The notes beneath the pieces were generated by a model, which did not search any database, was not told where the DNA came from, and was given only the letters and a program-made list of their open reading frames with translations. DNA of 22,851 nt from a virus. How positions within the stretch are numbered: position 1 is the first letter of the stretch; every line of letters begins with the position of its first letter. The stretch covers positions 1 to 22,851 of IMG/VR virus record IMGVR_UViG_3300020405_001700. One strand, given 5' to 3'. The translations under genes and the position numbers were made by a program. Shown here piece by piece: positions 3,013-22,223 of this stretch.

Positions 3013-3291
3013 ATGTTCATAGAGACATTAAAAACCATGCGATTGTACGAACGCCAAAGTAAACTGGGTGTTTATCATACCTTCCACCGTAAAAACACCG
3101 TGTATGTTTTCAAGTGCGATTCATGTGGTGACATCTTTCTCAGAGCCAGATCGCAAGTGGATCCTGAGCGAGCATCAAACGATTACAAACATGTGTGTAA
3201 CAACTGTGATACCAAAAAGTTTGCACAATCAGTGGGTGTCAAAATGAGACATATCTATAAAATTGACGCCAGTTCTACAAAACTAATTTAA
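3013..3291 (+). CDS. Small zinc-ribbon protein
   Basis: This 92-aa basic protein has two Cys pairs, C35-x2-C38 ('FKCDSCGD') and C62-x2-C65 ('HVCNNCDT'), spaced as in a zinc ribbon. A conserved-looking 'KKFAQSVGVK' tail follows. I recall similar small proteins beside structural genes in marine T4-like phages, with unknown function. Possible starts are TTG 3010, ATG 3013 and ATG 3037 (MRLYERQ). I chose 3013 because it lies 6 nt from the late-type box, matching other genes here. The protein family itself might start at 3037. The gene runs opposite to its neighbours and overlaps the stop of the convergent gene by 9 bases. Nucleic-acid binding is plausible but inferred only from the ribbon. Confidence 0.75.
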   Translation: MFIETLKTMRLYERQSKLGVYHTFHRKNTVYVFKCDSCGDIFLRARSQVDPERASNDYKHVCNNCDTKKFAQSVGVKMRHIYKIDASSTKLI

Positions 3292-4041
3292 AGGCCACCA
3301 CTGTATCTTGTCCTTTTCACCATTGACCCATCGTTGTAGATCTGCATATGTTCCAACACTAATGTTGGGTTGGTCAAAATAGCCAGGTAAAAAATAATTG
3401 TATTCTATGTATTCACGTCTGTTGATAAAATAAAAATTTGTATTAGGATAACGCCGAAATGTCTGGCGTAAATGATACATCCATTCATACTTTAAATATG
3501 CTTTCATACTCAATCTACTAGGATAATTTTTAGTATTTTTGTAGATGTTGTTTTGTTCTCTACTGCTACTGCCATCGACTGCGGCATATTCCCATTGTCT
3601 TGCACCCAATATGTCAAACGCAAGTATAATAACATTTTTTATTCCTGAGTCGGCGGCCATGGCCACAGCAGAAGTTCCTGACCCTTTTGCTTCACTGAAA
3701 TCCAGTGTTCTAATTTTGCCACCATTTTTGGTTGTGCCTCCACGCCAAATTCTATACAATTTAAGTTTGTCAGGCACGTCGGTGGTCTTGTCACCTTCAA
3801 TTATCCAATTCCAATCCAGTGTGTCTTCTAGTCCGTACACTTTCACAGTGCTTTCGGAGTCTTGTTTCCACTGTTGTAATTCAGCAGTCATGTTTTCATT
3901 TACACTGACAATATGATCGCACAGATCGGGATGATCTCTATAGATTGCGTTACAACCCCATACCACTCCTTTGCCTTTGAGTGTTTCTATAGGAAATATA
4001 TTTCTTGATTCACCGTTGCCAATTACAAACGCTGTGTCCAT
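3283..4041 (-). CDS. GNGESR-motif Rossmann-like protein (252 aa), paralogue 1
   Basis: The N-terminus 'TAFVIGNGESRNIFPIETL' is followed by 'VVWGCNAIYRDHPD'. This resembles the nucleotide-binding loop of MptE-like/DUF115 proteins and the 'GNGPSL...CN' motif of GT42-type sialyltransferases. Further on are 'KGSGTSAVAMAADSGIKNVIILAFDIL' and an aromatic-rich C-terminus. A paralogue lies at 7593-8234 with the same GNGESR, GCNAI(Y/F)RDH and (A/T)MDL/AFDIL landmarks. The ATG shares a base with the stop of iscA (TAATG), so it is the last cistron of the QueD-to-IscA operon. A glycosyl- or nucleotide-sugar-related role, perhaps with the glycosyltransferase at 4701-5399, is an inference. The family cannot be settled by eye. 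Confidence 0.85.
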   Translation of the reverse strand: MDTAFVIGNGESRNIFPIETLKGKGVVWGCNAIYRDHPDLCDHIVSVNENMTAELQQWKQDSESTVKVYGLEDTLDWNWIIEGDKTTDVPDKLKLYRIWRGGTTKNGGKIRTLDFSEAKGSGTSAVAMAADSGIKNVIILAFDILGARQWEYAAVDGSSSREQNNIYKNTKNYPSRLSMKAYLKYEWMYHLRQTFRRYPNTNFYFINRREYIEYNYFLPGYFDQPNISVGTYADLQRWVNGEKDKIQWWPLN

Positions 4042-7579: not shown

Positions 7580-7607
7580 ATTATAAACTTTATTATTTTT
7601 TTGTCAA
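7580..7607 (-). promoter_or_regulatory. Consensus sigma70-type promoter
   Basis: On the minus strand TTGACA (7607-7602) and TATAAT (7585-7580) are both perfect hexamers, 16 bases apart. Six bases separate the -10 from the ATG at 7573, so +1 falls on or next to the start codon. The -35 lies inside the last codons of the upstream gene (stop at 7595-7593). No T4-late box is present. This suggests host-polymerase, early-class expression of the operon 7573 to 3283. Confidence 0.8.
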
Positions 7608-8234
7608 TTGTTTATTGATCCACTTGGCCAGTCCTTCGTAGGACTCTTGAAAAACATTTTTATGCACTTTCCATTCCTCTGGCATTTTCCAGTTTTCTTC
7701 ATTTACCACTATCCATCTGCAATCGCTGTGTTCAAACAATTTGTTAAATTGGTATATCCAATAGCGAGGGTCAACAGGTTTCTTTATATATGTGTAACCT
7801 TTACTGCCTTTGTACATGTTGTTGACACCCTCAGGCCCTTTCTTATCGCCAACACCGTATAGATCCATAGCAATTAAAAATATTGCTTTGGGTTTAAAAT
7901 TAAGTCCTACTAGAGCGGCAAATTGTCCTGTGCCCCAATGAAAAGGATCATCTTGTCTCTTGTCGCCTTCATAAGGTAGATCAGGTACACATTTAACATT
8001 AGGCCAAAAAGCAAACTGTTTGTACCAATCTTTCCTGGTGTATATGGTTGTGTTTTTTCCAACTGTGTTTACTGCTTCTTGACACATGTGACGATCACAG
8101 GCCACCACATAGTCCATGTTATGATCCCGAAATATCGCATTGCAACCCACCACAGTGGTAATACCTTTCAGAGGTGTTATATCAAATCCACGTCTACTTT
8201 CGCCGTTGCCTATCACACTAACAAACTTAGTCAT
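7593..8234 (-). CDS. GNGESR-motif Rossmann-like protein (213 aa), paralogue 2
   Basis: This is a clear paralogue of the protein encoded at 3283-4041. It has 'FVSVIGNGESRRGFDITPLKG' read as the N-terminal loop, then 'VVGCNAIFRDH', 'WGTGQFAALVGL', 'IFLIAMDLYGV' and 'NNMYKGSKGYT'. It is about 40 residues shorter, mainly in the middle. The GNG loop and following CN resemble MptE-like/DUF115 proteins and GT42-type transferases, and neither is proven. It stands alone between two sigma70-led operons, with its own late-type box 5 nt before ATG. The two paralogues are therefore likely made at different times. Confidence 0.85.
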   Translation of the reverse strand: MTKFVSVIGNGESRRGFDITPLKGITTVVGCNAIFRDHNMDYVVACDRHMCQEAVNTVGKNTTIYTRKDWYKQFAFWPNVKCVPDLPYEGDKRQDDPFHWGTGQFAALVGLNFKPKAIFLIAMDLYGVGDKKGPEGVNNMYKGSKGYTYIKKPVDPRYWIYQFNKLFEHSDCRWIVVNEENWKMPEEWKVHKNVFQESYEGLAKWINKQLTKK

Positions 8235-11609: not shown

Positions 11610-11617
11610 CATAAATA
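11610..11617 (+). promoter_or_regulatory. Late-type promoter box
   Basis: CATAAATA, 10 nt before the ATG at 11628. It diverges from the minus-strand box at 11580-11573. Confidence 0.6.
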
Positions 11618-11627
11618 TACACATATT

Positions 11628-11906
11628 ATGGATTTTGTAACATTGATAAAAGATGTGGGTTTTCCAATTGCAGGCGCCATTGCCGCCGGTGCTTTTGTGT
11701 TTATCACTCTAAAATTTATATTGGCTTCGGTCACAGGGAGTGTCAACAGTCTGAAAGCAATCATTGGTGCATTGGACAATCGAGTGCAGACCATGAACAA
11801 CGATTTAGTTAAAATTGATGCTCTACTAAGTTATGTGCTTAAAATTAGACCCAACGATGATCGTATAGCGGCCAATGAAGGAAAAGAAGATGCTAGACGG
11901 GACTAA
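11628..11906 (+). CDS. Single-pass membrane protein, tandem paralogue 1 (holin-like?)
   Basis: This 92-aa protein starts MDFVTLIKDVGFPIAGAIAA, with one membrane span at about residues 12-33. A helical charged tail follows with 'LDNRVQTMNNDLVKIDALLSYVL'. It is a clear paralogue of the next gene: shared 'TxIKDxGFPI', one span, then a 'x-D-N-R/D-M...ND(L/M)-x-K/R' helix. A short N-terminus, one span and a cytoplasmic coil resemble BhlA-type small holins. No holin family can be confirmed by eye. The gene is on the plus strand with its own late-type box and overlaps its paralogue by 17 bases. Confidence 0.8.
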   Translation: MDFVTLIKDVGFPIAGAIAAGAFVFITLKFILASVTGSVNSLKAIIGALDNRVQTMNNDLVKIDALLSYVLKIRPNDDRIAANEGKEDARRD

Positions 11907-12231
11907 TGATTTAGTAACAATAATTAAGGACTTTGGATTTCCAATTGTGGCCGCCATGGGACTTGGTTACTTTGTTTTTTACATCTGGAAGTGGGTCACC
12001 GAAGAAGTCAAACCTGTGTTAGGTGAAGCCAGTTCAACACTAATAAAATTAGTAGATCGTGTGAGAATGCTGGACAACGACATGATTAGACTTAACACCA
12101 AACTATCCATGGTCCTGGAATACAGAGAAGAAATAGTAAAAGCAGGACGTTCTGATGAATTAGATCAAATTCTAAGCAAATACAAAAGCAAGTCAGAACA
12201 TTTTGATTCTACAGGCACTACTAAAAAATAA
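11890..12231 (+). CDS. Single-pass membrane protein, tandem paralogue 2
   Basis: This 113-aa protein starts MLDGTNDLVTIIKDFGFPIV. It has one membrane span ('VAAMGLGYFVFYIWKWV') and a long helical tail with 'LIKLVDRVRMLDNDMIRLNTKLSMVL'. I chose the ATG at 11890 because AAGGA lies 9 nt upstream. An ATG at 11875 has no such site and would add five Lys/Glu-rich residues. It pairs with the preceding paralogue, suggesting a two-component membrane complex. A role in lysis (holin/antiholin) or envelope anchoring is a guess. Its stop is 1 base from the convergent stop of the dehydrogenase gene. Confidence 0.8.
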   Translation: MLDGTNDLVTIIKDFGFPIVAAMGLGYFVFYIWKWVTEEVKPVLGEASSTLIKLVDRVRMLDNDMIRLNTKLSMVLEYREEIVKAGRSDELDQILSKYKSKSEHFDSTGTTKK

Positions 12232-12232
12232 C

Positions 12233-13387
12233 TTAATTAATTTTATAATATTTTACATTGGCACTGTCTAGTTCCTGTGCCGATTGTTTTTCAAGTAGAT
12301 CAGGATACAATGTTTTAAGGCGATTATATACTTTGTCGTTAAGAAACTTTGAAGGCGCCACATACACTTGTATATTATTTTTCAAGAACATTTCTGCTAG
12401 ATCATATTGCTGTGCAGGCTCGTCAAGATCAGTACCTGCTTTGTAACTGATATAGGAAAAGAAATAAGGAAGGTTATTTTTGTTATCTGTGCAATAGTAA
12501 TCATATAAAAAATCAACATGCTTGTCATTGAATTGATCCACTATGTTGCCTAATTCATAATTGTAGCCTATTTTTTCAGCAAACTTCACCAATGACCTAT
12601 TGTCTCGTGGCAGACAAGGACCACCATATCCAAAACCAAAATCTATTAACCGTGTGCCTACATTGGGGTTTAGTTTCATGAGATTATAGAAAGCATCTTT
12701 GTCGTTCCAACTGCCGCTTTTGTATAACAATTGCCCCATCATGTTGGCAAAACTTATTTTAAGAGTAGAAAAACAGTTCAGTGCCATTTTCACAATCTCA
12801 GTGCCTGTGTAACTCAATGCAATTATTTGATCTCCGCTTTGTAATAGAGTTTCAAAAAAGTTTTTGGCTTTTGTAAATGCTTGTTTGCTATCGGTGCCTA
12901 CCATGACATGATCTTGATTTGCAAAATCTTCATACACACCGCCTTGTGCCACATATATAGGACAATACACGACATCACATTCGTAGGCTTTGAGCGTATC
13001 ACTCACAGTTTGGCAGTATCCAGGATTTGTAGTGCTGGCAATGATACACAATTTGTCTTTGAGATTACCTTTGTATTTTTTTATATCATCAACCACGTTA
13101 TCAATGGCCTGCATGTCATAATCACCTGTTGGCAGACTAGGAGTGGCCACAATAATATAAATGATATCGCTTTGATCTATCACATATTGATTGTCTGTGG
13201 TAAACGTAATCTTTGAATTCTGTAACAGTTCATGCACATGAGGTTCGGTTGTATTGATTTTTTTAGTTTGCAAGTCAGCCACATATTTTTCTTTGTATGA
13301 ACTGGCAATAACATTGTGTCCTTTCTGTTCAAAGCACAATGCTATGGGCAAACCACAACGTCCAACACCAATTAATCCTACATTCAT
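12233..13387 (-). CDS. UDP-glucose/GDP-mannose dehydrogenase family protein
   Basis: This 384-aa protein has the family order. The NAD-binding loop is 'GLIGVGRCGLP' (res 4-14), followed by 'STTNPG'. The dimer helix has K200 and N204 in 'TEIVKMALNCFSTLKISFAN', and the catalytic loop 'GFGYGGPCLPRD' has C258 and D262. Such enzymes oxidise a nucleotide sugar twice at C6 to a uronic acid, or epimerise/oxidise related sugars. The usual 'PEFLREG' segment reads 'PIYVAQGG' at about 143-150, so the conserved Glu of UGDH is Gln here. The C-terminal third is short for the family. Activity may differ from UDP-glucose oxidation. The late-type box is 5 nt before ATG. Confidence 0.9.
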   Translation of the reverse strand: MNVGLIGVGRCGLPIALCFEQKGHNVIASSYKEKYVADLQTKKINTTEPHVHELLQNSKITFTTDNQYVIDQSDIIYIIVATPSLPTGDYDMQAIDNVVDDIKKYKGNLKDKLCIIASTTNPGYCQTVSDTLKAYECDVVYCPIYVAQGGVYEDFANQDHVMVGTDSKQAFTKAKNFFETLLQSGDQIIALSYTGTEIVKMALNCFSTLKISFANMMGQLLYKSGSWNDKDAFYNLMKLNPNVGTRLIDFGFGYGGPCLPRDNRSLVKFAEKIGYNYELGNIVDQFNDKHVDFLYDYYCTDNKNNLPYFFSYISYKAGTDLDEPAQQYDLAEMFLKNNIQVYVAPSKFLNDKVYNRLKTLYPDLLEKQSAQELDSANVKYYKIN

Positions 13388-13392
13388 ATGAA

Positions 13393-13400
13393 TATTTAAG
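13393..13400 (-). promoter_or_regulatory. Late-type promoter box
   Basis: CTTAAATA on the minus strand, then TTCAT (5 nt), then ATG at 13387. It sits between the cyclase stop and the dehydrogenase start, so the two genes need not share a transcript. Confidence 0.5.
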
Positions 13401-13405
13401 TGTGA

Positions 13406-15226
13406 CTAAGTGGTTGTGTAAACTTTTATTTTTTCTGTCTTGCCTTTGACTGTGATCTCGTCTACGTAATCAAAATTATAATTGTGTTTGGCACCTTTCA
13501 CAGTTTTCTCACCAATCACTAATGTTTTTCCGAGAGTCTTACTGCTACTTTCTAATCTCGAAGCAAGATTAACATCATCTCCAATCACACTGTAATCAAA
13601 TCTTTGACTGCTACCCATGTTACCTACCAATGCTTCTCCAGTGTTTATTCCAATACCTATGTTTATTTGTGGCAGTCCTTCTGTTTCTAATTCTTTGTTT
13701 AATACGATCAATTCTTTCTGCATGTCGATGGCGGCCTGTACTGCATTTTCCTCATGTTTGGGATCATCAATGGGCGCATTCCAAAATGCCATGATACAAT
13801 CGCCCATAAATTTGTCTATGGTTCCACCGTTCTTGATTATGATATCAGTCATTCGTGTTAAAAATCTATTAATAAGTTTTGTCAGTCCTGCAGGATTGCC
13901 TTTATACTTTTCAGATATGGGAGTAAAGCCTCTGATGTCTGAAAACATAAAAGTCATTGTTTTTGTTTCACCACCCAACTTTAAAAGACTAGGATCCTGC
14001 TGTAATTTTTTAACCATGGCAGGGGCAAGATAATGTTCAAACTGTTTTTTAATCTGCTGTTTGAGGCTGAACTCTTTAACGAATCGATTGAATACTGCAT
14101 GGAAGCCTGTGATGGTTGTGACCAACAAAATCCAACTGGCGTCCCACAGTTGTAAATGTTTGACAAAATAAAAGTATGCTCCGTAGGCTGTTCCCGACCA
14201 TACTGTCAACAAAACTGCACCAACCAACCAGTAGGGAGCAAAGCCGGCCAGCAATATTATTACAAATGCCAATACACCTGCCGCAACATATTCTAAGAAA
14301 GTTGCTGTATCTAGTCTAACAATATTTTCACCATTGATTACAGTCTGTAAACTTACTGCCATTGCATGATGGCTATAGGCTTCGCCGTTTGGTGTGGCAA
14401 TGATTGTGCTGATTCCTTCAGCAGTGTTGCCCAATATGACAGTTTTTCCTTGAACTACTGACAAGTCACCCGTCACACTAACTGTTTCAAATTGTTTATT
14501 CCATCTTAACCATATTCTTGCATACTGATCTGTTTTGATTGTTTTAAATTTTGGAACTCTTAGTGCAATCACACCGCCTGCGCCTGCTTTGACTTGATAA
14601 CTTGGATCGCCCACAGCCACTCTAATCACTTCCATTGGTACACTTGGATACACTTCGTCTCCAACTCTCATCAACAACGGCAGACGTCTAACCACACCAT
14701 CAATTTCAGGAGTTGTGTTGACAACGCCAACACCGTCTGCATTTATTCCTAATAATTCTATTGGTCCCAACATACCAGGCCATTCAAACAACCATGGTAA
14801 TGGATCTCCAATTTTGGCCACTCCTCTTGGCACTGCATTTTTATTTGTCTGTGTTGTGCCCACTTGAGCAATTACAACTCCATTTTGCACCAATGCCTGT
14901 GCAAGGTCCATATCTCCTCCCAACCTGTCCTCTTCAGAAAACAAAATAGGTAACACAATTATACCAGCACCTGCTTCTCTCAATTTCCAGATCACATCTG
15001 CAAGTACAGTTCTTTTCCAAGGCCACTGTCCATTTTGTTCTATGCTCTTTTCATCTATTTCCACAATAACAACATCTTTGCTTATACTGGGAGTGTCGTA
15101 TTTTTGTATGAGGTCAAAACTTTTTAACCTTGCTGTTTCTTTAACGAAAGGATCTTTCAGTCCCCACAGCATCAGTGCGGCCAGTGTAAAGAATGCCAAT
15201 GTCCAGTGTGTAAATATTTTATTCAC
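13406..15226 (-). CDS. CHASE2 sensor-class III nucleotide cyclase
   Basis: This 606-aa membrane protein has an N-terminal span (about 8-23), then a periplasmic CHASE2 domain (about 30-305, with 'VVIVEIDEKSIEQNGQWPW' and 'VVRRLPLLMRV'). Three spans (about 311-380) lead to a linker and a class III catalytic domain (about 420-600). Metal-binding D430 ('FMFSDIRGFTP') and D476 ('KFMGDCIMAFW') are present, as are purine-selecting K472 and D551 and transition-state N553 and R557 ('DDVNLASRLE'). All active-site residues are intact and point to cAMP rather than cGMP. The start is GTG at 15226, with AAGGA 8 nt upstream, overlapping the membrane-protein gene by 8 bases. CHASE2 cyclases often sit near FecR genes in bacteria, and one lies two genes upstream here. 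Confidence 0.95.
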   Translation of the reverse strand: MNKIFTHWTLAFFTLAALMLWGLKDPFVKETARLKSFDLIQKYDTPSISKDVVIVEIDEKSIEQNGQWPWKRTVLADVIWKLREAGAGIIVLPILFSEEDRLGGDMDLAQALVQNGVVIAQVGTTQTNKNAVPRGVAKIGDPLPWLFEWPGMLGPIELLGINADGVGVVNTTPEIDGVVRRLPLLMRVGDEVYPSVPMEVIRVAVGDPSYQVKAGAGGVIALRVPKFKTIKTDQYARIWLRWNKQFETVSVTGDLSVVQGKTVILGNTAEGISTIIATPNGEAYSHHAMAVSLQTVINGENIVRLDTATFLEYVAAGVLAFVIILLAGFAPYWLVGAVLLTVWSGTAYGAYFYFVKHLQLWDASWILLVTTITGFHAVFNRFVKEFSLKQQIKKQFEHYLAPAMVKKLQQDPSLLKLGGETKTMTFMFSDIRGFTPISEKYKGNPAGLTKLINRFLTRMTDIIIKNGGTIDKFMGDCIMAFWNAPIDDPKHEENAVQAAIDMQKELIVLNKELETEGLPQINIGIGINTGEALVGNMGSSQRFDYSVIGDDVNLASRLESSSKTLGKTLVIGEKTVKGAKHNYNFDYVDEITVKGKTEKIKVYTTT

Positions 15227-15620
15227 CTATTATGTCCTTTTCCCATATATCTAAACCTATGTTTAAGCCTGTAACAAGTCCATATATCATGGCGATGCCG
15301 AGTGTTAGGGTGACCAATATGATTGGACTTAATAGCCAAAGCCACCAGTAGTACCTGAATACGTTTTGTCCTTTGGCCAGACGTTTCACCCTATTGTCCA
15401 TGAACCAGTGTACGATTCTCTTGACCACGCTTTTCAATTTATCTACAAGGAATTTGTTAATGAACCAACGCACCGCTCTCATCACTATTAGTATTGGAGA
15501 ACTTAACACTTCAAAAAACAATAGGAAACAGTCAACACTGAGGTCAACTATGTTATCTGCGGTGCAGGCCTTACGCCAACGTTCACGCAGGGTCAGTTTC
15601 TTAGGTTGCTCATCTGCCAT
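15219..15620 (-). CDS. Small membrane protein between curlin and cyclase (133 aa)
   Basis: I do not recognise a family. The protein starts MADEQPKKLTLRERWRKACT. It has a hydrophobic segment at about 26-48 ('LSVDCFLLFFEVLSSPILIVM'), a basic amphipathic stretch with several Trp/Arg/Lys ('RWFINKFLVDKLKSVVKRIV'), and one or two strong spans at about 92-125 ('WLWLLSPIILVTLTLGIAMIYGL'). Its stop overlaps the cyclase GTG start, so it is translationally coupled to the cyclase and is a likely partner of it. A separate late-type box 8 nt before its ATG splits this pair from the curlin genes upstream. Confidence 0.8.
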   Translation of the reverse strand: MADEQPKKLTLRERWRKACTADNIVDLSVDCFLLFFEVLSSPILIVMRAVRWFINKFLVDKLKSVVKRIVHWFMDNRVKRLAKGQNVFRYYWWLWLLSPIILVTLTLGIAMIYGLVTGLNIGLDIWEKDIIGE

Positions 15621-15628
15621 TATGTGTG

Positions 15629-15636
15629 TATTTAAC
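15629..15636 (-). promoter_or_regulatory. Late-type promoter box inside the curli block
   Basis: GTTAAATA on the minus strand, 8 nt before the ATG at 15620 and just past the curlin B stop. It could give the membrane protein and cyclase their own transcript. Confidence 0.5.
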
Positions 15637-15641
15637 TAGAT

Positions 15642-16583
15642 CTAGTTTTGTGTGACTGTGACACTACAACCACCTACCGTTTGGCAGTTTTGATTCAGGC
15701 TATATGTGCCTGCCTGTGTAGATTGTGATGTTCCCATCTGTAGATCAAGATTTGTTCCGTAGTTTCCGTCCAAGGTCACAGTAGCAGTCTGTCCATGTGA
15801 TTTCTTTTGATGTATGGAAACATTGTTGTCATCGTTGTTGATGTTAAGAGTAAGACTTTTTGTAGTGTTTGACTCTTGCATAAGGTGTACGTCATTGTCG
15901 TCAGAGTAAATGTTTATGTCCATGTAGTGTCCAGACGTGTTATTTTGTGAACGCTGTGACATAATAATGTCATTACGATCTCCTGTCACATACAGATCCA
16001 TGCTGTGTCCACCTTGTTCTGTTCCATCATATTGCCAATTGCCAGTTTCGCTGATCTTGTAGCCTTGACCCATCATGATGTCATTATCGTTACCGGTATA
16101 AACATTTAAAACCATAGTGTCTTGATTGCAACTTGATCCTACACTGCATCTTTGTCTGGCATCCACAGAATTTCCGTCATAGTCAATTTCTAGATCCATG
16201 TTTGCGTTTGATGTGATCTGTTGACCAGAAACATTATTATTGTCACCGTGTGTGTCTATTCTCATGATGTTGTCATCACCGGTCTGTGTGGTAGTGATGC
16301 TTCCACTGGTCTGATTATCTGAACCGTAATAGTGCTTGTAAAGACCAAGCATGTTGTTGTCGCCTGTCTGTGTTGATGTCAGTGATTGATTTTTACCGTA
16401 GAAAGTGGCCGCACCTGGACTGCTGGTAGTGGAATCGTTTTTCCTACTGATTCTGTTGTTCTGTCCGTCCTGTGTGATGTTGATATCAACGTTGTCACCA
16501 GATTGATTGATATAAATGTCATTGGCCAATACTGTGGAGCAAAATAAAAGAATACTACTGAGTTTGAATAATAGTGATTGCAT
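15642..16583 (-). CDS. Curlin-repeat secreted protein B (CsgA/CsgB-like)
   Basis: About 313 aa. A signal peptide ends near 'STVLA', and the mature protein starts 'NDIYINQSGDNVDINITQDG', a textbook curlin repeat (x-Q-x-G-x-x-N-x). Further repeats run to the end: 'STQTGDNNMLG', 'TTQTGDDNIMR', 'YTGNDNDIMMGQ', 'VTGDRNDIIMSQ', 'YSDDNDVHLMQ', 'NNDDNNVSIHQ', and a final 'SVTVTQN'. Asp is unusually frequent. Two close Cys pairs ('RCSVGSSC', 'NCQTVGGC') are unusual for curlins. GGAGGA lies 7 nt before the ATG at 16583 but only 1 nt before the ATG at 16589, so I prefer 16583. It should be exported through CsgG and form extracellular amyloid. It overlaps the FecR gene. Confidence 0.9.
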   Translation of the reverse strand: MQSLLFKLSSILLFCSTVLANDIYINQSGDNVDINITQDGQNNRISRKNDSTTSSPGAATFYGKNQSLTSTQTGDNNMLGLYKHYYGSDNQTSGSITTTQTGDDNIMRIDTHGDNNNVSGQQITSNANMDLEIDYDGNSVDARQRCSVGSSCNQDTMVLNVYTGNDNDIMMGQGYKISETGNWQYDGTEQGGHSMDLYVTGDRNDIIMSQRSQNNTSGHYMDINIYSDDNDVHLMQESNTTKSLTLNINNDDNNVSIHQKKSHGQTATVTLDGNYGTNLDLQMGTSQSTQAGTYSLNQNCQTVGGCSVTVTQN

Positions 16584-17670
16584 TTTCATTTCCTCCAATT
16601 TCGTAGTCAATTACATAAAAGTCCTGTTGTTGCACGTTTAACTGATAAGTGTTTTCTTTGCTTAACCGCAGTTCAATATAATTGCCCGCGGCATCTTCTC
16701 TGATCCATACATAGGCATCATTGTCATCTAACAAAATTATTCCTGTCTCAGGATCTTTTCCAAACACCAGGTTACTGAAGTCAGCACGTTTTTTTTGTTT
16801 GTCAAATTCGTCACTCATTTGTATGGCCAACTCTTGATTGATCTGCTCTAATATATCAACTAAAAAATTTTGTTCTAAAAAATCAATATCAAGAGCAGTG
16901 GCCCAGTTGTCTGTTTCTTCTTCCAATAGATAGTCTCTGTTTAGTTCGTTGAATTCTAAAAAATCAATGTCAAGGGCGTTGGCCACTGCATTATATTTGG
17001 CATTGTCTAATGCTTCTTCTATTTCTTTTGGTTTACTGATTATCAAAAGATTGTTTATTAGACTTTCATCCAGGGTCAGTGTTACTGGTGGCATTGGTGG
17101 ACTGGCAACAGTTTCAACCACTGTGGCCTGGAATGCCTGGTTCATAATCACCTGCCCAGCATCAGATTCAACTGCAATTTCTCCCACATAACATTTGCCC
17201 AATGTGTTGCAACTGGGCAATAAAATAATTGTACTGCTACCTAATTCATCAATGGTCATGGCAAAGTCTGTTCCCCTTACTGCAATTGTGGCAGTGGGTG
17301 TGGATATCTTTACATTTTGTTTGGAATTTTTTGCTATCTGTCCTGAAGCATATCTCACAGTCCCTAGTGATGCTTTCAAACTGAGAGCACCTGTTTGTGT
17401 GTTGGGATCATACACAAATTCATCTATGATCAACTTGCTGTGTTGTGTGACATCAACTCTTGTTTCGTCTAAAAATTCTATTCCGGTCTTGCCGTTGCCT
17501 GTTTTGACAATGTCGTAACTGAATATGTCTAGATCAATCACAGTGATCTGTTCTTCACCGGTTGTTCTCTCTACTTCACCATTGCCTTCGTGTAGGATCA
17601 CATTGCCTATACTGGTGTACCCCTGTGCAGTCCAAAGTAGACTGCACAGTAATATTATGAAAAATTTCAT
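16555..17670 (-). CDS. FecR-domain periplasmic protein
   Basis: This 371-aa protein has a signal peptide (about 1-17, MKFFIILLCSLLWTAQG). A FecR domain follows at about 30-150: 'VKTGNGKTGIEFLDETRVDV', 'ALSLKASLGTVRYASG' and the diagnostic 'ISTPTATIAVRGTDFAM'. C154 and C160 flank a small loop. An acidic helical part carries two copies of ALDIDFLE (about 232 and 259). The C-terminus is a small beta segment rich in Gln/Tyr. There is no membrane span after the signal, so it is not a classical FecR anti-sigma regulator, and no FecI sigma factor is nearby. It sits between two curlin genes (TAATG coupling upstream, 29-base overlap downstream). It may scaffold or sense curli assembly, which is inference. 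Confidence 0.9.
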   Translation of the reverse strand: MKFFIILLCSLLWTAQGYTSIGNVILHEGNGEVERTTGEEQITVIDLDIFSYDIVKTGNGKTGIEFLDETRVDVTQHSKLIIDEFVYDPNTQTGALSLKASLGTVRYASGQIAKNSKQNVKISTPTATIAVRGTDFAMTIDELGSSTIILLPSCNTLGKCYVGEIAVESDAGQVIMNQAFQATVVETVASPPMPPVTLTLDESLINNLLIISKPKEIEEALDNAKYNAVANALDIDFLEFNELNRDYLLEEETDNWATALDIDFLEQNFLVDILEQINQELAIQMSDEFDKQKKRADFSNLVFGKDPETGIILLDDNDAYVWIREDAAGNYIELRLSKENTYQLNVQQQDFYVIDYEIGGNENAITIIQTQ

Positions 17671-18356
17671 TAGTCAGTTTGGCTGATGTCTATATCGTGG
17701 TTATCGCCTGATGTGCTTAAAGTCACCATGTTGTCATATACACCTGACTGGACAACGTCAACATCCGCTATACCACCTGTGTGTGTATGTATGAATGTGT
17801 GTCCGTTTATGTCACCATCGCCATCAATGTCTACCAACCAATTGTTTGTGTCGCCGTCAACTGTGATTGTCAAGATTGCACTTACACCATCTATAGTTGC
17901 CGCAATTACGTTGGAGTCATCTGAGGCCGCTGATGTTATAGTTGCAGTCGTGTTAGACGCATCTGCTGTCTCACCAATGTCTAGATCTATGTCATTTGAG
18001 TCACCAACCATTGTGATTGACGCAGTAACAGTTCCACATGAACTGTTGTTTCCTGTGCTATCACAATTCATATCGATGTTGTTGGAGTTACCAGTAACGT
18101 TAAATGTACCAGTATATGTTGCTCCGTTTACATCAAATGTCAATACGTTGGAGTTTCCAACTTGATCAATGTCAATAGTTGCCGTGGCACCTGTGACTGT
18201 TGACGCTGTTGTGGAATTACCCACTTGGTTGTTTTGTCCATCCTGTGTGATGTCCAAGTCAAGTGTGTCTCCAGACTGTGTTACATAGATATCATTGGCA
18301 TAAACACCAAAGGCAATACCTGCTGTCAGCAATAATGTAGTTAATAGTCGCTTCAT
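17670..18356 (-). CDS. Curlin-repeat secreted protein A (CsgA/CsgB-like)
   Basis: This 228-aa protein has a signal peptide ending near 'GVYA'. Its mature start 'NDIYVTQSGDTLDLDITQDG' is almost the same as that of curlin B. Repeats continue as 'DIDQVGNSNVLTF', 'NVTGNSNNIDM', 'TMVGDSNDIDLD', 'TVDGDTNNWLVDI' and end 'DVVQSGVYDNMVTL' and 'SGDNHDIDISQTD'. It is very rich in Asp, Thr, Asn and Ser, with almost no Lys or Arg after the signal. One Cys pair lies in 'NCDSTGNNSSCG'. AAGGA lies 9 nt before ATG, and an internal late-type box is 22 nt upstream. It should be secreted through CsgG as the major or nucleating fibre subunit. Which curlin plays which role is unknown. Confidence 0.92.
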   Translation of the reverse strand: MKRLLTTLLLTAGIAFGVYANDIYVTQSGDTLDLDITQDGQNNQVGNSTTASTVTGATATIDIDQVGNSNVLTFDVNGATYTGTFNVTGNSNNIDMNCDSTGNNSSCGTVTASITMVGDSNDIDLDIGETADASNTTATITSAASDDSNVIAATIDGVSAILTITVDGDTNNWLVDIDGDGDINGHTFIHTHTGGIADVDVVQSGVYDNMVTLSTSGDNHDIDISQTD

Positions 18357-18365
18357 TCCTCGTCT

Positions 18366-18370
18366 TCCTT
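18366..18370 (-). promoter_or_regulatory. Shine-Dalgarno site of curlin A
   Basis: AAGGA on the minus strand, 9 nt before the ATG at 18356, just after the csgG stop. It supports independent, strong translation of the fibre subunit. Confidence 0.6.
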
Positions 18371-18371
18371 A

Positions 18372-19175
18372 TTAGTAGTATTTAATCTTCCAGAGGCCTG
18401 ATTTATCACCCAGTTTTAAGATTTCCAGCAAACAAAATTCTATTGCTGTTCTAACTGCGTAATTCACTGGTTCATTACTTGCCACACCAGATTCCACTTC
18501 AAATGCTTTTGTGCTCATATCTAAAAATCTAAACACATCTGCACCTGTTTTGTGGCTGGCAATTGTTTTTGTTGCTTCTGCTGTAAGCAGGACTTCTCCT
18601 GTTTGTACAGCAACTAGGCGCATACTTACAGTAACCTGGTCAATTCTGTATTCCTCGTGTACGCCAATTCCAAAATATCGTGCTCCATCTCCACCAGAGG
18701 CCACATTGGCGTCATATCCCACTATGCCGCCCTCTATGAGTAGTCCTGCAAACACTAAAGGCTTGATCACATTGCCCACTTCCTGTTTGCCATCATACAT
18801 TTCTCTGGTGCTTCTAATTAATTGTCTCTCTTTGATTAGACTATCCAATCCTTTTCTCTCCACAACTTTGAACCATTTACCTTTGCCCACTGCTTTGAGT
18901 GCCGCTATCACCCAAGTGTCAGCACCCTGTGACACTGCCATCGACAGTTGTGAAAATTTTGTGCTGGGTTTACGTTGTCCTGTGAGATCAGGAAAGTTGT
19001 AAACTGCTATGGTTATCATGGGTTGATCCTGTAATGGTGGAATCGCTTCCAACATGTGTCTAGTGGATGTGCCTTCGATAAAAGGCTCGTCACCTATGTT
19101 GACTTTGTTTGTGTTTTTAGCACAACCTCCGGTAAGTCCACACATTATGGCAAATATTGCTAACAGTTTAAACAT
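18372..19175 (-). CDS. csgG: CsgG, curli outer-membrane export channel
   Basis: This 267-aa protein aligns by eye with E. coli CsgG. It has 'ITIAVYNFPDLTGQRKP', then 'KFSQLSMAVSQGADTWVIAAL', 'WFKVVERKGLDSLIKERQLI', 'IEGGIVGYDANVASGGDGAR', 'YFGIGVHEEYRIDQVTVSMRLVAVQTGEVL', 'ADVFRFLD', and 'GLWKI' near the end. The N-terminus (MFKLLAIFAIMCGLTGGC) is a lipoprotein signal with C18 as the likely acylated residue, although T at -3 is atypical. The E. coli C-terminal tail after 'GLW' is almost wholly missing. In E. coli CsgG forms a nine-subunit pore that exports curlins. The start is TAATG-coupled to csgF. Confidence 0.95.
   Translation of the reverse strand: MFKLLAIFAIMCGLTGGCAKNTNKVNIGDEPFIEGTSTRHMLEAIPPLQDQPMITIAVYNFPDLTGQRKPSTKFSQLSMAVSQGADTWVIAALKAVGKGKWFKVVERKGLDSLIKERQLIRSTREMYDGKQEVGNVIKPLVFAGLLIEGGIVGYDANVASGGDGARYFGIGVHEEYRIDQVTVSMRLVAVQTGEVLLTAEATKTIASHKTGADVFRFLDMSTKAFEVESGVASNEPVNYAVRTAIEFCLLEILKLGDKSGLWKIKYY
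18379..18386 (-). promoter_or_regulatory. Late-type box in the end of csgG
   Basis: ATTAAATA on the minus strand spans the last csgG codons, 22 nt before the curlin A ATG. It is partly forced by the codons for Ile-Lys-Tyr, so chance is possible. If active it would raise curlin mRNA above csgFG. Confidence 0.35.
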
Positions 19176-19636
19176 TAGAAATTAAAGTCTCCCATGGGCA
19201 CAGTCATTGTGGTCACAGTGCCATCTGCACCTGTGACTGTCAAGGTTATGATTTCTGTTGAAGTGTCTTTGACCCAATATATTGTGCTTCCTTCCACTTC
19301 AGCAGTTCCGCTGGTTGGACAAGTTCCTGAACAAGATGTTCCAAACATGTTGTCCACCAATTGTTTTGATAGATTGGCATAAATTCTTGATTCTACGTTT
19401 TTGATGAATTTGTTAATTGTGGTGTTTTCATTTTCTCTTTTTGCTCTAGCCGCTTCAGCCTTTTGTGCTTCTTTGACATCTTGTTTTCTGCTGTACTGCA
19501 ATTGTTCAATACTGAGAACATGTGTGCTGTATCCACTGCCTGAGAAACTGGGATTTTTGAAGTCGTGCGTGAGTTCGCTGGCGTTGGCAAAACCAATCGC
19601 ACCGGCAATAATTAACAATGTTAAAAGTTTTCTCAT
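19175..19636 (-). CDS. csgF: CsgF, curli pore adaptor
   Basis: This 153-aa protein has a signal peptide ending near 'GFANA'. The mature N-terminus 'SELTHDFKNPSFSGSGYSTH' matches the CsgF pattern 'T-F-x-F-x-N-P-x-F-G-G', the part that plugs into the CsgG pore. An Arg/Lys/Glu-rich helix follows, then a beta domain ending 'TVTTMTVPMGDFNF', parallel to the E. coli CsgF end. A Cys pair ('SCSGTC') is extra. In E. coli CsgF links nucleator curlin to the pore on the cell surface. It is the first gene of the curli block, with a late-type box 37 nt upstream and a palindrome in the leader. No csgE, csgC or csgD is seen. Confidence 0.92.
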   Translation of the reverse strand: MRKLLTLLIIAGAIGFANASELTHDFKNPSFSGSGYSTHVLSIEQLQYSRKQDVKEAQKAEAARAKRENENTTINKFIKNVESRIYANLSKQLVDNMFGTSCSGTCPTSGTAEVEGSTIYWVKDTSTEIITLTVTGADGTVTTMTVPMGDFNF

Positions 19637-19662: not shown

Positions 19663-19809
19663 ATTATTAAACATATTTATCGAAATTTTGGTAAAGGGTT
19701 TTTTGACAGCAGTTTCTAAATCACTAGAATGCACACCATCATAAACTGCGTACTTAATGATAGTGTGGCCTGTTTTTTTCCTGTATTTGCCAAGTAAATA
19801 TCTACGCAT
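19660..19809 (-). CDS. Possible 49-residue basic protein
   Basis: The frame begins MRRYLLGKYRKKTGHTIIKY and continues 'AVYDGVHSSDLETAVKKPFTKISINMFNN'. The composition looks protein-like, with a basic start and a plausible fold, so it may be real. Against it: no Shine-Dalgarno sequence or promoter box is visible, it runs antisense across the promoter of the plus-strand HExxH gene, and its 3' end covers the csgF promoter. Its ATG and that of the HExxH gene share one CATG. It fills the region 19660-19807, where I see no other gene. Confidence 0.4.
   Translation of the reverse strand: MRRYLLGKYRKKTGHTIIKYAVYDGVHSSDLETAVKKPFTKISINMFNN
19674..19681 (-). promoter_or_regulatory. Late-type promoter box of the curli operon
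   Basis: GATAAATA on the minus strand. Its predicted +1 near 19668 would leave a leader of about 32 nt containing the whole palindrome. This is the longest leader at any late-type box in the window. Confidence 0.6.
19793..19800 (+). promoter_or_regulatory. Late-type promoter box
   Basis: AGTAAATA, 7 nt before the ATG at 19808. It diverges from the curli operon box about 110 bases away. Confidence 0.5.
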
Positions 19810-20846: not shown

Positions 20847-22223
20847 TTAACTTTTAAGTGTCAAAGTAGGTACAGAAATTTCCGCGGTACCACGTAAGAA
20901 TTCAAATATGGCTGAAATTTTTAATCTATCTCTTACTGCTAATAAATCTTTTCCATCAATCACTAGAGTATAATTCATTGTGCCTGCATTTAACATCATT
21001 ACACCATGAAAATTTTTTTTAGATTTGTAAAGATCATAAGCCAAGGAACTAGACAGTGCGGATAATTTGTAAAAATCAATTGTACCATCATCATTGACTC
21101 CGTCACTTATCTGTCCTGAACTTACAGATTGTCCAGGGTAGTTTGCCGCATACATTTTTGAGAGCATGGCCACAACTTTTTTCTTGCCCATTTTTGGAAA
21201 GTATAGGGCATTAAATTGTTTTACTCTTCTTTCGCCTAGGGTAAGATTTTTTTCTACTTTTCCTGGTGTAATTTTTTCTAGTTCTTTTTTCAGTATACTT
21301 TTTGCTTCCATGGCTCCAGGTCCAGTAACTCCCTTTGTTGACTGATCTTGCAATACAAAATCCGTTGCTTTACCTTTACTAATCCCTGAAGTTTTCAATT
21401 CTATTTCTTTTCCTGCCAGAGTAAGATCGCCTTGCTTTTCTTGTTTGGCATTTATATCACCACAAAACACTAACGCAAATTCACCTTGTCCGCCAGCGGC
21501 TGATCCAGGACGCATGACGTTAAACAATGCTTTAAATATGCCTTGAAATTTTGATGTGACAGGAATAGGAGTTGGATCAAGCACAGGCTCTGCAACCATT
21601 TCGCTTGTTTTTACAACTCCAGCCGTTGCACAAAGATTTAAAAATTCTGCTGTATTAACTGGACCTATGTTTGGCCTTGTTACCATGGCTCTAATTTTAT
21701 CATCCATTTGACCCTTATACGAATCCTGAGCGGCTTCAAATTTAGTGTCTATAAGTTTATTGGTCTGTCTAATCATTGGCCCAATGAGTTCTTGATTCAA
21801 AATTTCCATTTGTTGTTGGGCATCTATTTGTGTAGGTTGTTCATTCATAGATTCCTTTGATTGCTTTAAATTTTGTACTTTTTGTTTTACGTTGTTATAA
21901 ATTTCTTTTGCATCTATTGGAATCAAAGCCGCAACTTTTTTTAAGGTATTCATTACTGCATTTTCATTTAATTCTGTTTCTCTTAAGAACCACGGAGTCT
22001 CGAATGATTCCTTCTTCATGAACCTATGTATTAGGTCTTGGTACAGTTTATCGTATGAATCTTGGCCAATTTGTCCTTGGTCGCGTCTTGCTTGTAGGTC
22101 AAGCACACCTGTGATAAAATCTGGATATTCTGAGACACTGGGCATTTTAATAACCTTCCTCTCAGGCTCAGGAAATTTGATTATGTCGGCCTTTTGTTTT
22201 TCTTTTTCAAACCACGGTTTCAT
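20847..22223 (-). CDS. Large phage protein with PD-(D/E)XK-like motif (458 aa)
   Basis: The N-terminal third (MKPWFEKEKQKADIIKFPEP onward) looks like an adaptor or helical region, with a Gln-rich coil at about 115-160. The centre has 'GQGEFALVFCGDINAKQEKQ', 'GDLTLAGKEIELKTSG'. E248, D266 and E275-x-K277 are spaced as in the PD-(D/E)XK nuclease core (Glu on the first helix, Asp, then Glu-x-Lys). The C-terminal part includes 'FYKLSALSSSLAYDLYKSK' and 'MMLNAGTMNYTLVID'. I have seen similar proteins in marine T4-like phages but cannot name one. A DNA-cutting role is possible, and the order E-D-ExK supports it. It has a perfect TATAAATA box 5 nt before ATG. Confidence 0.8.
   Translation of the reverse strand: MKPWFEKEKQKADIIKFPEPERKVIKMPSVSEYPDFITGVLDLQARRDQGQIGQDSYDKLYQDLIHRFMKKESFETPWFLRETELNENAVMNTLKKVAALIPIDAKEIYNNVKQKVQNLKQSKESMNEQPTQIDAQQQMEILNQELIGPMIRQTNKLIDTKFEAAQDSYKGQMDDKIRAMVTRPNIGPVNTAEFLNLCATAGVVKTSEMVAEPVLDPTPIPVTSKFQGIFKALFNVMRPGSAAGGQGEFALVFCGDINAKQEKQGDLTLAGKEIELKTSGISKGKATDFVLQDQSTKGVTGPGAMEAKSILKKELEKITPGKVEKNLTLGERRVKQFNALYFPKMGKKKVVAMLSKMYAANYPGQSVSSGQISDGVNDDGTIDFYKLSALSSSLAYDLYKSKKNFHGVMMLNAGTMNYTLVIDGKDLLAVRDRLKISAIFEFLRGTAEISVPTLTLKS

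Follow-up and report, generated by a model that had tools for sequence, protein, structure and literature searches.

The genes csgF and csgG were first reported in pelagimyophages by PMC7029224, and the core of CsgF, CsgG, curlin, FecR, a further curlin and a cyclase has been known since 2022, PMC9599517 (Wittmers 2022) describing the full set, including FecR and an adenylate cyclase, in podo- and myophages. In that paper, the pelagiphage type VIII secretion system (T8SS) module comprises CsgF, CsgG, CsgA/B, FecR and often a second CsgA/B plus the cyclase, FecR is read as an iron regulator, a 'histidine kinase' is placed ahead of csgF, and trees point to an alphaproteobacterial origin of the module. 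Phage Melnitz has been said to be without csgA and csgB, and a role in lysis has been proposed (PMC9004378). Here, genes in the same order are described in a virus record of 22,851 bases (IMGVR_UViG_3300020405_001700, positions 1-22,851; hereafter the window), where a block of seven minus-strand genes running from 19636 to 13406 encodes CsgF, CsgG, curlin A, a FecR-domain protein, curlin B, a small protein with two transmembrane (TM) segments and a CHASE2-class III adenylate cyclase. We propose, with about an even chance of being right, that these genes belong to a cassette that a T4-like phage expresses late in infection and that makes an anchored curli-type fibre in which the FecR protein is the anchor and the CHASE2 cyclase reads the FecR protein.

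Parts of the block resemble several bacterial systems. Curli loci of bacteria (E. coli csg and alphaproteobacterial csgF-csgG loci) share CsgF, CsgG and the curlins with the phage block, whereas FecR, the CHASE2 cyclase and a pair of small proteins, s1 and s2, are absent from all eight bacterial csgF neighbourhoods inspected (three alpha- and five gammaproteobacterial). A seven-gene order common on bacterial chromosomes, which by the earlier note would have refuted its reading, was not encountered in these eight neighbourhoods. In RTX adhesins of the LapA/MpAFP type, a folded periplasmic domain (5ix9) anchors the exported polymer, as the phage FecR domain may do; the polymer of the window would instead be curli exported via CsgG, and its sensor a CHASE2 cyclase rather than LapD/LapG with cyclic di-GMP. 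In the BiofilmReg operon of Burkholderia, disruption of which abolishes biofilm, a CHASE2 histidine kinase is encoded together with a LysM-FecR protein of the periplasm (PMC5192318). Like the window, it encodes a periplasmic FecR protein beside a CHASE2 sensor, but it differs in its histidine kinase and response regulator, its LysM-anchored FecR and its chromosomal location. FecR anti-sigma regulators, finally, share the periplasmic FecR fold, whereas the phage protein is without their anti-sigma domain and TM helix.

The proposed anchor, the FecR-domain protein (16555..17670, minus strand; Pfam FecR 1.8e-8), begins with an N-terminal signal peptide for export, directly followed by the FecR domain (about residues 20-200; 17071..17613, minus strand), a helical linker and a curlin-like C-terminal tail (about residues 340-371; 16558..16653, minus strand). 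In an AlphaFold2 model (predicted local distance difference test score 84), the FecR domain is a well-predicted beta domain, the helical linker is weak and the tail is again beta, and no anti-sigma domain or TM helix was found by Pfam, by a TM check or in the model. The model has the periplasmic FecR fold, matching PupR (6ovk) with a Z of 15.2 over 135 residues. It also matches 5ix9, a 'Cell surface anchoring domain' from an antifreeze protein, with a Z of 8.0 over 74 of 76 residues at 24% identity, and by Foldseek with a probability of 1.00 and a root-mean-square deviation of 1.0 Å over 62 columns at 29% identity; the same entry is the best PDB sequence match of the window FecR (E 0.05). We take 5ix9 to be the periplasmic anchor of the giant ice adhesin of Marinomonas. 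The FecR domain thus shares the fold of an RTX-adhesin retention domain, a likeness that is not specific, as the PupR match is stronger. Retention domains of this type fold inside and are then too large to pass through the channel (PMC12077191).

The tail of the FecR protein points in the same direction. A profile built from the C-termini of phage curlins gave phage FecR tails a median of 11.6 bits. Scores above 5 bits were reached by 70 of 77 tails, compared with 3 of 385 shuffled sequences and 22 of 2261 C-termini from elsewhere, some of the best in the last group being CsgF. Two columns, Gln348 and Gln369, are invariant across 35 divergent tails. Pfam saw no curlin likeness in the tail, which only the purpose-built profile detects, and a PDB structure search with the tail folded alone returned no clear match and no curlin. 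The same profile also scores CsgF C-termini, that of the window CsgF at 11.2 bits (19175-19636) and a few others at 6-12 bits. From fold, tail and gene partners we infer that the FecR protein is the exported anchor of a surface polymer; the earlier note rightly placed a FecR protein in the block, but its idea of a reporter of envelope or fibre state fits less well, as the protein looks like a polymer anchor rather than a separate reporter.

The polymer itself would be made by well-supported curli machinery. The csgF gene (19175..19636, minus strand; Pfam CsgF 1.9e-14) encodes a signal peptide and a CsgF protein that keeps the N-terminal pore-lining motif F-x-N-P-x-F-x-G, present in 68 of 84 phage CsgF proteins. 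It is followed by csgG (18372..19175, minus strand; Pfam CsgG 1.1e-48) for the outer-membrane secretion channel lipoprotein, a lipobox being found in 86 of 88 phage CsgG proteins. Distant or doubtful CsgG matches were also seen in the Brevundimonas phages ON529851-ON529860 (350 kb), which encode a distant CsgG-like protein, and in OR851715.1, a 1.5 kb 'Salmonella phage' record that is possibly host DNA. Curlin A (17670..18356, minus strand; Pfam Curlin_rpt 8e-5) is a CsgA/B-like fibre subunit with invariant Q/G/N repeat positions in its alignment; a PDB sequence search with it returned nothing but spurious GFP-type matches. Curlin B (15642..16610, minus strand), the second curlin, is identifiable solely via its phage relatives, by a family hidden Markov model across loci, and probably starts at 16589 or 16583 (MKMQSLLF...) and not at the TTG at 16610. 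The CsgE adaptor was found in none of 13 module phage records, an E. coli control being positive, and CsgE is dispensable for curli in E. coli (PMC7029224). A CsgG lipoprotein, a CsgF with a pore-binding N-terminus and curlin-repeat subunits, that is, a type VIII secretion system apart from CsgE, are accordingly encoded, and by homology the curlins would be secreted through the CsgG/CsgF pore.

The block is neither an accident of this contig nor confined to it. All seven open reading frames overlap or are closely spaced, Pfam directly supports five of them, and PHROGs gave strong matches for CsgF, CsgG, FecR and the cyclase, all to unnamed families. The exact order CsgF-CsgG-curlin-FecR-curlin-cyclase recurs in 66 fetched loci, and nine more, the window included, have a small membrane protein before the cyclase, an order far beyond chance. 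Scans with FecR and the cyclase gave 308 and at least 591 viral loci, respectively; in all locus counts the same virus from several samples is sometimes counted more than once. Open reading frames, Pfam and relatives thus bear out the seven genes at 13406-19636, curlin B with a probably later start, and also the earlier note's reading that this phage combines curli-type export and two curlins with FecR and a CHASE2 cyclase. That the set was unknown did not hold, as it is described in PMC9599517 and carried by Melnitz and HTVC008M. The records of both phages show the gene order of the window, with CsgF, CsgG, a curlin, FecR, a fifth gene at the place of the second curlin and then the cyclase, the FecR gene of HTVC008M and the gene next to it being annotated merely as hypothetical proteins. 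In MW574966, none of the annotations in the 45 kb examined is for a T8SS gene. What appears new, as far as the literature found shows, is the anchor reading, s1/s2, the late-promoter motifs and a sister cassette with type I secretion; in the main text of PMC9599517, no mention was found of a cassette with type I secretion, of late promoters or of the curlin-like FecR tail.

The contig is of phage nature: its genes match phage families, among them QueD and a baseplate wedge/tail-fibre connector of the T4 type. A chimaera of phage and bacterial DNA, a concern raised with the first description of the block, is ruled out by independent contigs that cross both junctions: L084 (95-100% identity per protein) spans the cyclase, a dehydrogenase gene, s2 and s1 and thus the junction near 13400, and L086, L091 and L161 span the one near 19700, with AlgH, DUF6647 and csgF onwards in the same order. 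The curli module was also seen on contigs of jumbo-phage size, L260 (357 kb), L324 (349 kb) and L318 (258 kb), and on contigs binned as metagenome-assembled genomes (MAGs) of Flavobacteriaceae, Rhodobacteraceae, Pirellulales or Pelagibacter (L169-L182), which are probably phage pieces inside bacterial genome bins. A CsgG scan of genome contigs returned mostly such phage-like pieces in MAGs, and bacterial loci were therefore reached via genome searches.

The last gene of the block encodes CHASE2, a TM segment and a class III adenylate cyclase (13406..15226, minus strand; Pfam CHASE2 1e-40, Guanylate_cyc 2e-24). Both metal-binding Asp residues, the purine-site Lys and the transition-state Arg are kept in all 110 phage homologues and the transition-state Asn in 97 of them, so the catalytic residues agree with the adenylate cyclase identity first assigned, and the active site is by sequence intact. 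Its neighbour FecR is a recurrent partner in bacteria: of 150 CHASE2 genes among those listed for 289 alphaproteobacterial genomes, 33 have a FecR match within 6 kb, against about 0.7 expected. Both genes are present in 14 of 15 neighbourhoods fetched, and the remaining one had been chosen for its CHASE2 gene alone, which substantiates the earlier note's statement that the two often adjoin. Among the FecR proteins encoded next to bacterial CHASE2 cyclases are RTX, cadherin, Calx-beta, VWA and TbpB-like surface proteins. The pairing of the two genes, seen in bacteria and kept in either type of phage cassette, suggests that CHASE2 may read FecR. In four loci (L158, L317, L322, L324) the cyclase was seen opposite in direction to the csg genes, sometimes with s1/s2 between; parts of the cassette can thus be re-oriented.

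For an answer in cyclic AMP (cAMP), as the earlier note had it, a recognised receptor is nearly missing in SAR11 and missing in the module phages searched. A domain binding cyclic nucleotide monophosphates (cNMPs) occurs in 2 of 60 Pelagibacter-family genomes and in none of the 13 module phage records, complete HTVC008M and Melnitz included; a class III cyclase likewise occurs in 2 of 60, and both match the phage cyclase model strongly. SAR11 thus appears to have no native class III cyclase and hardly ever a CRP-type receptor. The survey concerns HTVC008M and other phages of SAR11, and not the window directly.

ATAAATA is the core of the T4 late promoter. It stands upstream of csgF (19674..19680, minus strand) and of s1 (11611..11617, plus strand), and all four such sites of the window lie 6-38 nucleotides before a gene start in the right orientation (chance about 2e-6), the genes behind them being a tail fibre gene, s1, csgF and 20847-22223; the number of sites alone is not unusual. 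Across loci, the motif lies within 140 nucleotides upstream of s1 in 101 of 160 cases against 9.7 by shuffle and of csgF in 74 of 141 against 14.0, whereas it was found there for s2 in 0 of 162, for csgG in 1 of 136 and for fecR in 0 of 129; the cyclase gene has it in 21 of 133 loci against 10.0 expected. As it precedes csgF and s1, the cassette is probably expressed late in infection.

The cassette is not confined to 13406-19636, as the plus-strand pair s1 and s2 at 11628-12231 belongs to it too, and as a whole it has about nine genes and is carried by many marine phages. The proteins s1 (11628..11906, plus strand; 92 amino acids) and s2 (11875..12231, plus strand; 118 amino acids) are paralogues, each with one TM segment and a likely coiled coil. 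They are present in 75 of 87 loci having CsgF, CsgG, FecR and the cyclase, upstream, downstream or inside and on either strand, and a scan outward from s1/s2 found a cassette in 25 of 25 loci of at least 15 kb, 24 with curli and one (L314) with type I secretion. Among 50,697 phage records, s2 matched HTVC008M and Melnitz alone, at two places in each, and in the 289 alphaproteobacterial genomes s1/s2 occurred in one MAG that also holds a phage-like csg contig. From this association, s1/s2 would be constant partners of the cyclase. They probably are the 'HK, sometimes two' placed ahead of csgF in PMC9599517: at that place most loci here have s1/s2 of about 80-155 amino acids, with no kinase family match. 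Neither Pfam nor NCBIfam gave a histidine kinase match (HisKA/HATPase), and the PDB gave weak coiled-coil matches and nothing else. Compared with the module of that paper, the window has s1/s2 downstream and on the other strand, and an extra small two-TM protein (15219..15620, minus strand), an optional member that matches no family, has relatives in 10 viral loci and occurs in both cassette types.

That second type replaces the curli part. A cassette free of csg genes occupies the same slot on 23 viral contigs, two of which are 148 and 137 kb long, and is flanked, where the contig reaches, by AlgH on one side and an exonuclease gene on the other; cassettes of this kind were noted at L163, L164, L166, L167, L314 and L341-L371. 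It encodes a FecR-adhesin, OEP, an ABC-like membrane protein, HlyD, the CHASE2 cyclase and s1/s2, often with the small membrane protein. Complete adhesins have 1209-1696 amino acids, and of five scanned, all have FecR, four have cadherin and two of them RTX repeats. As in LapA/MpAFP-type systems, a FecR-cadherin/RTX protein is thus encoded with OEP and HlyD. These two parts of a type I secretion system are recognised (Pfam OEP 2e-49, HlyD_3 6e-17); the third, the ABC-like protein (L166:6565-7314 and relatives; 249-251 amino acids), matches nothing in Pfam, and a Walker A motif is missing from every copy. The OEP gene matched none of the 50,697 phage records, an exact ATAAATA precedes one of five RTX-adhesin genes, and no publication was found on an RTX adhesin together with type I secretion encoded by a phage, the one hit concerning mussel symbionts. 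The constant part of both cassettes is the FecR domain, the CHASE2 cyclase and s1/s2, and the polymer and its exporter vary. Because the same core accompanies a cadherin/RTX adhesin in the sister phages, it probably serves anchored surface polymers generally and not curli alone. The broader view, in which these are interchangeable anchored-polymer cassettes that join the constant core to curli or to type I secretion and give a late tethered adhesin with a private, cAMP-speaking sensor, is tentative, and we would put it a little short of an even chance.

How such a cassette may work can be laid out in steps. As homology supports, the pore in the outer membrane would consist of CsgG and CsgF, and the subunits secreted to build the fibre would be curlins A and B. 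The FecR protein would be exported, its FecR domain folding in the periplasm as a retention plug, and its curlin-like tail may enter or nucleate the fibre, which would so stay tethered to the cell. The CHASE2 domain of the inner-membrane cyclase would read the state of the periplasmic FecR and alter cAMP output. As the weakest and most speculative step, late-infected cells might aggregate or adhere and thereby set free their progeny close to new hosts, in the manner of the 'sibling capture' idea (PMC7029224). Several points weigh against this proposal. Any FecR fold may resemble 5ix9 somewhat, with PupR scoring higher, and the curlin likeness of the tail lies at the level of sequence, with no clear fold match. 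The FecR domain of the sister adhesins is 33-34% identical to that of the window and no closer than the best bacterial ones, and so gives no sign of a direct swap, and two of seven scanned bacterial partner FecR proteins have no further surface domain in Pfam. CRP-type cAMP receptors are nearly absent in SAR11 and absent from the 13 module phage records. In published work found, no fibre, secretion or cAMP has been demonstrated for any member, and no clumping was seen in Melnitz infection (PMC9004378).

Among other explanations, superinfection exclusion, by which a curli coat blocks competing phages with FecR and the cyclase tuning it, was named among others by the earlier note and is also offered in PMC9599517. 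A surface coat could hide receptors, and a glycosyltransferase-like gene is encoded in the neighbourhood within the window. A fibre on the infected cell is in keeping with the curli machinery, but a purely early exclusion fits poorly with the late-promoter motifs, as exclusion is usually wanted early, and the single anchored adhesin that takes the place of curli in other phages suits adhesion better than coating; we regard this explanation as unlikely. The cyclase may also be no fibre sensor at all, its gene being merely co-transferred and its product serving a separate takeover by flooding the host with cAMP or draining its ATP. This would agree with the opposite orientation of the cyclase in some loci and with the fact that 58 of 60 Pelagibacter-family genomes, like the module phage records, lack a domain that binds cNMPs, but the kept CHASE2 sensor domain and the persistence of the bacterial FecR-CHASE2 pair in both cassette types make it rather improbable.

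A role in lysis timing, with CsgG/CsgF as a gated pore or pinholin analogue (PMC9004378) and s1/s2 as a holin/antiholin-like pair, would suit the late-promoter motif, and s1/s2 are small paralogous TM proteins, 7 of 23 of which match a holin PHROG weakly (best 1e-4). Its premise of missing curlins fails, however, as the deposited Melnitz record holds two genes annotated as curlin repeat proteins plus FecR; CsgF retains its pore-lining motif, and in the sister phages a type I secretion system replaces the pore, so this role seems quite improbable. Iron or nutrient uptake, an option in PMC9599517 with FecR as an iron-citrate regulator and a CsgG pore lacking CsgE that admits siderophores or cofactors, is very improbable in spite of the real FecR domain fold and the missing CsgE, as the FecR protein is without anti-sigma domain or TM helix, no sigma factor or TonB receptor was found among the window genes examined, and FecR domains of this type occur in RTX/cadherin surface proteins.

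Other genes of the window lie outside this argument. A UDP-glucose/GDP-mannose dehydrogenase-like gene (12233-13387) separates the cyclase gene from s2 both in the window and in L084 and is rare among relatives; it was rejected as a cassette member, as it had only four matches among the loci. Two genes belong to one PHROG family (30607; 3283-4041 and 7593-8234), and no tRNA was found in the window.

Taken with the anchored-fibre proposal, these results suggest that phage curli, so far seen as a stray operon for secretion with an iron regulator attached, can be tested as a surface polymer that is anchored and sensed. Three published readings are questioned: FecR as an iron regulator, the 'histidine kinase', which is probably the small membrane pair, and the missing curlins of Melnitz. 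Phages would be able to build an anchored surface polymer from two different secretion systems, and the sister phages, in which the sensor stays but a large sticky surface protein takes the place of the fibre, give a hint at the sensor's purpose. If true, the cAMP of a phage-borne sensor would, in SAR11, address a host without a recognised cAMP receptor. For the little-understood FecR-CHASE2 pairs of bacteria, the findings suggest that they may sense if a surface polymer has been seated after export.

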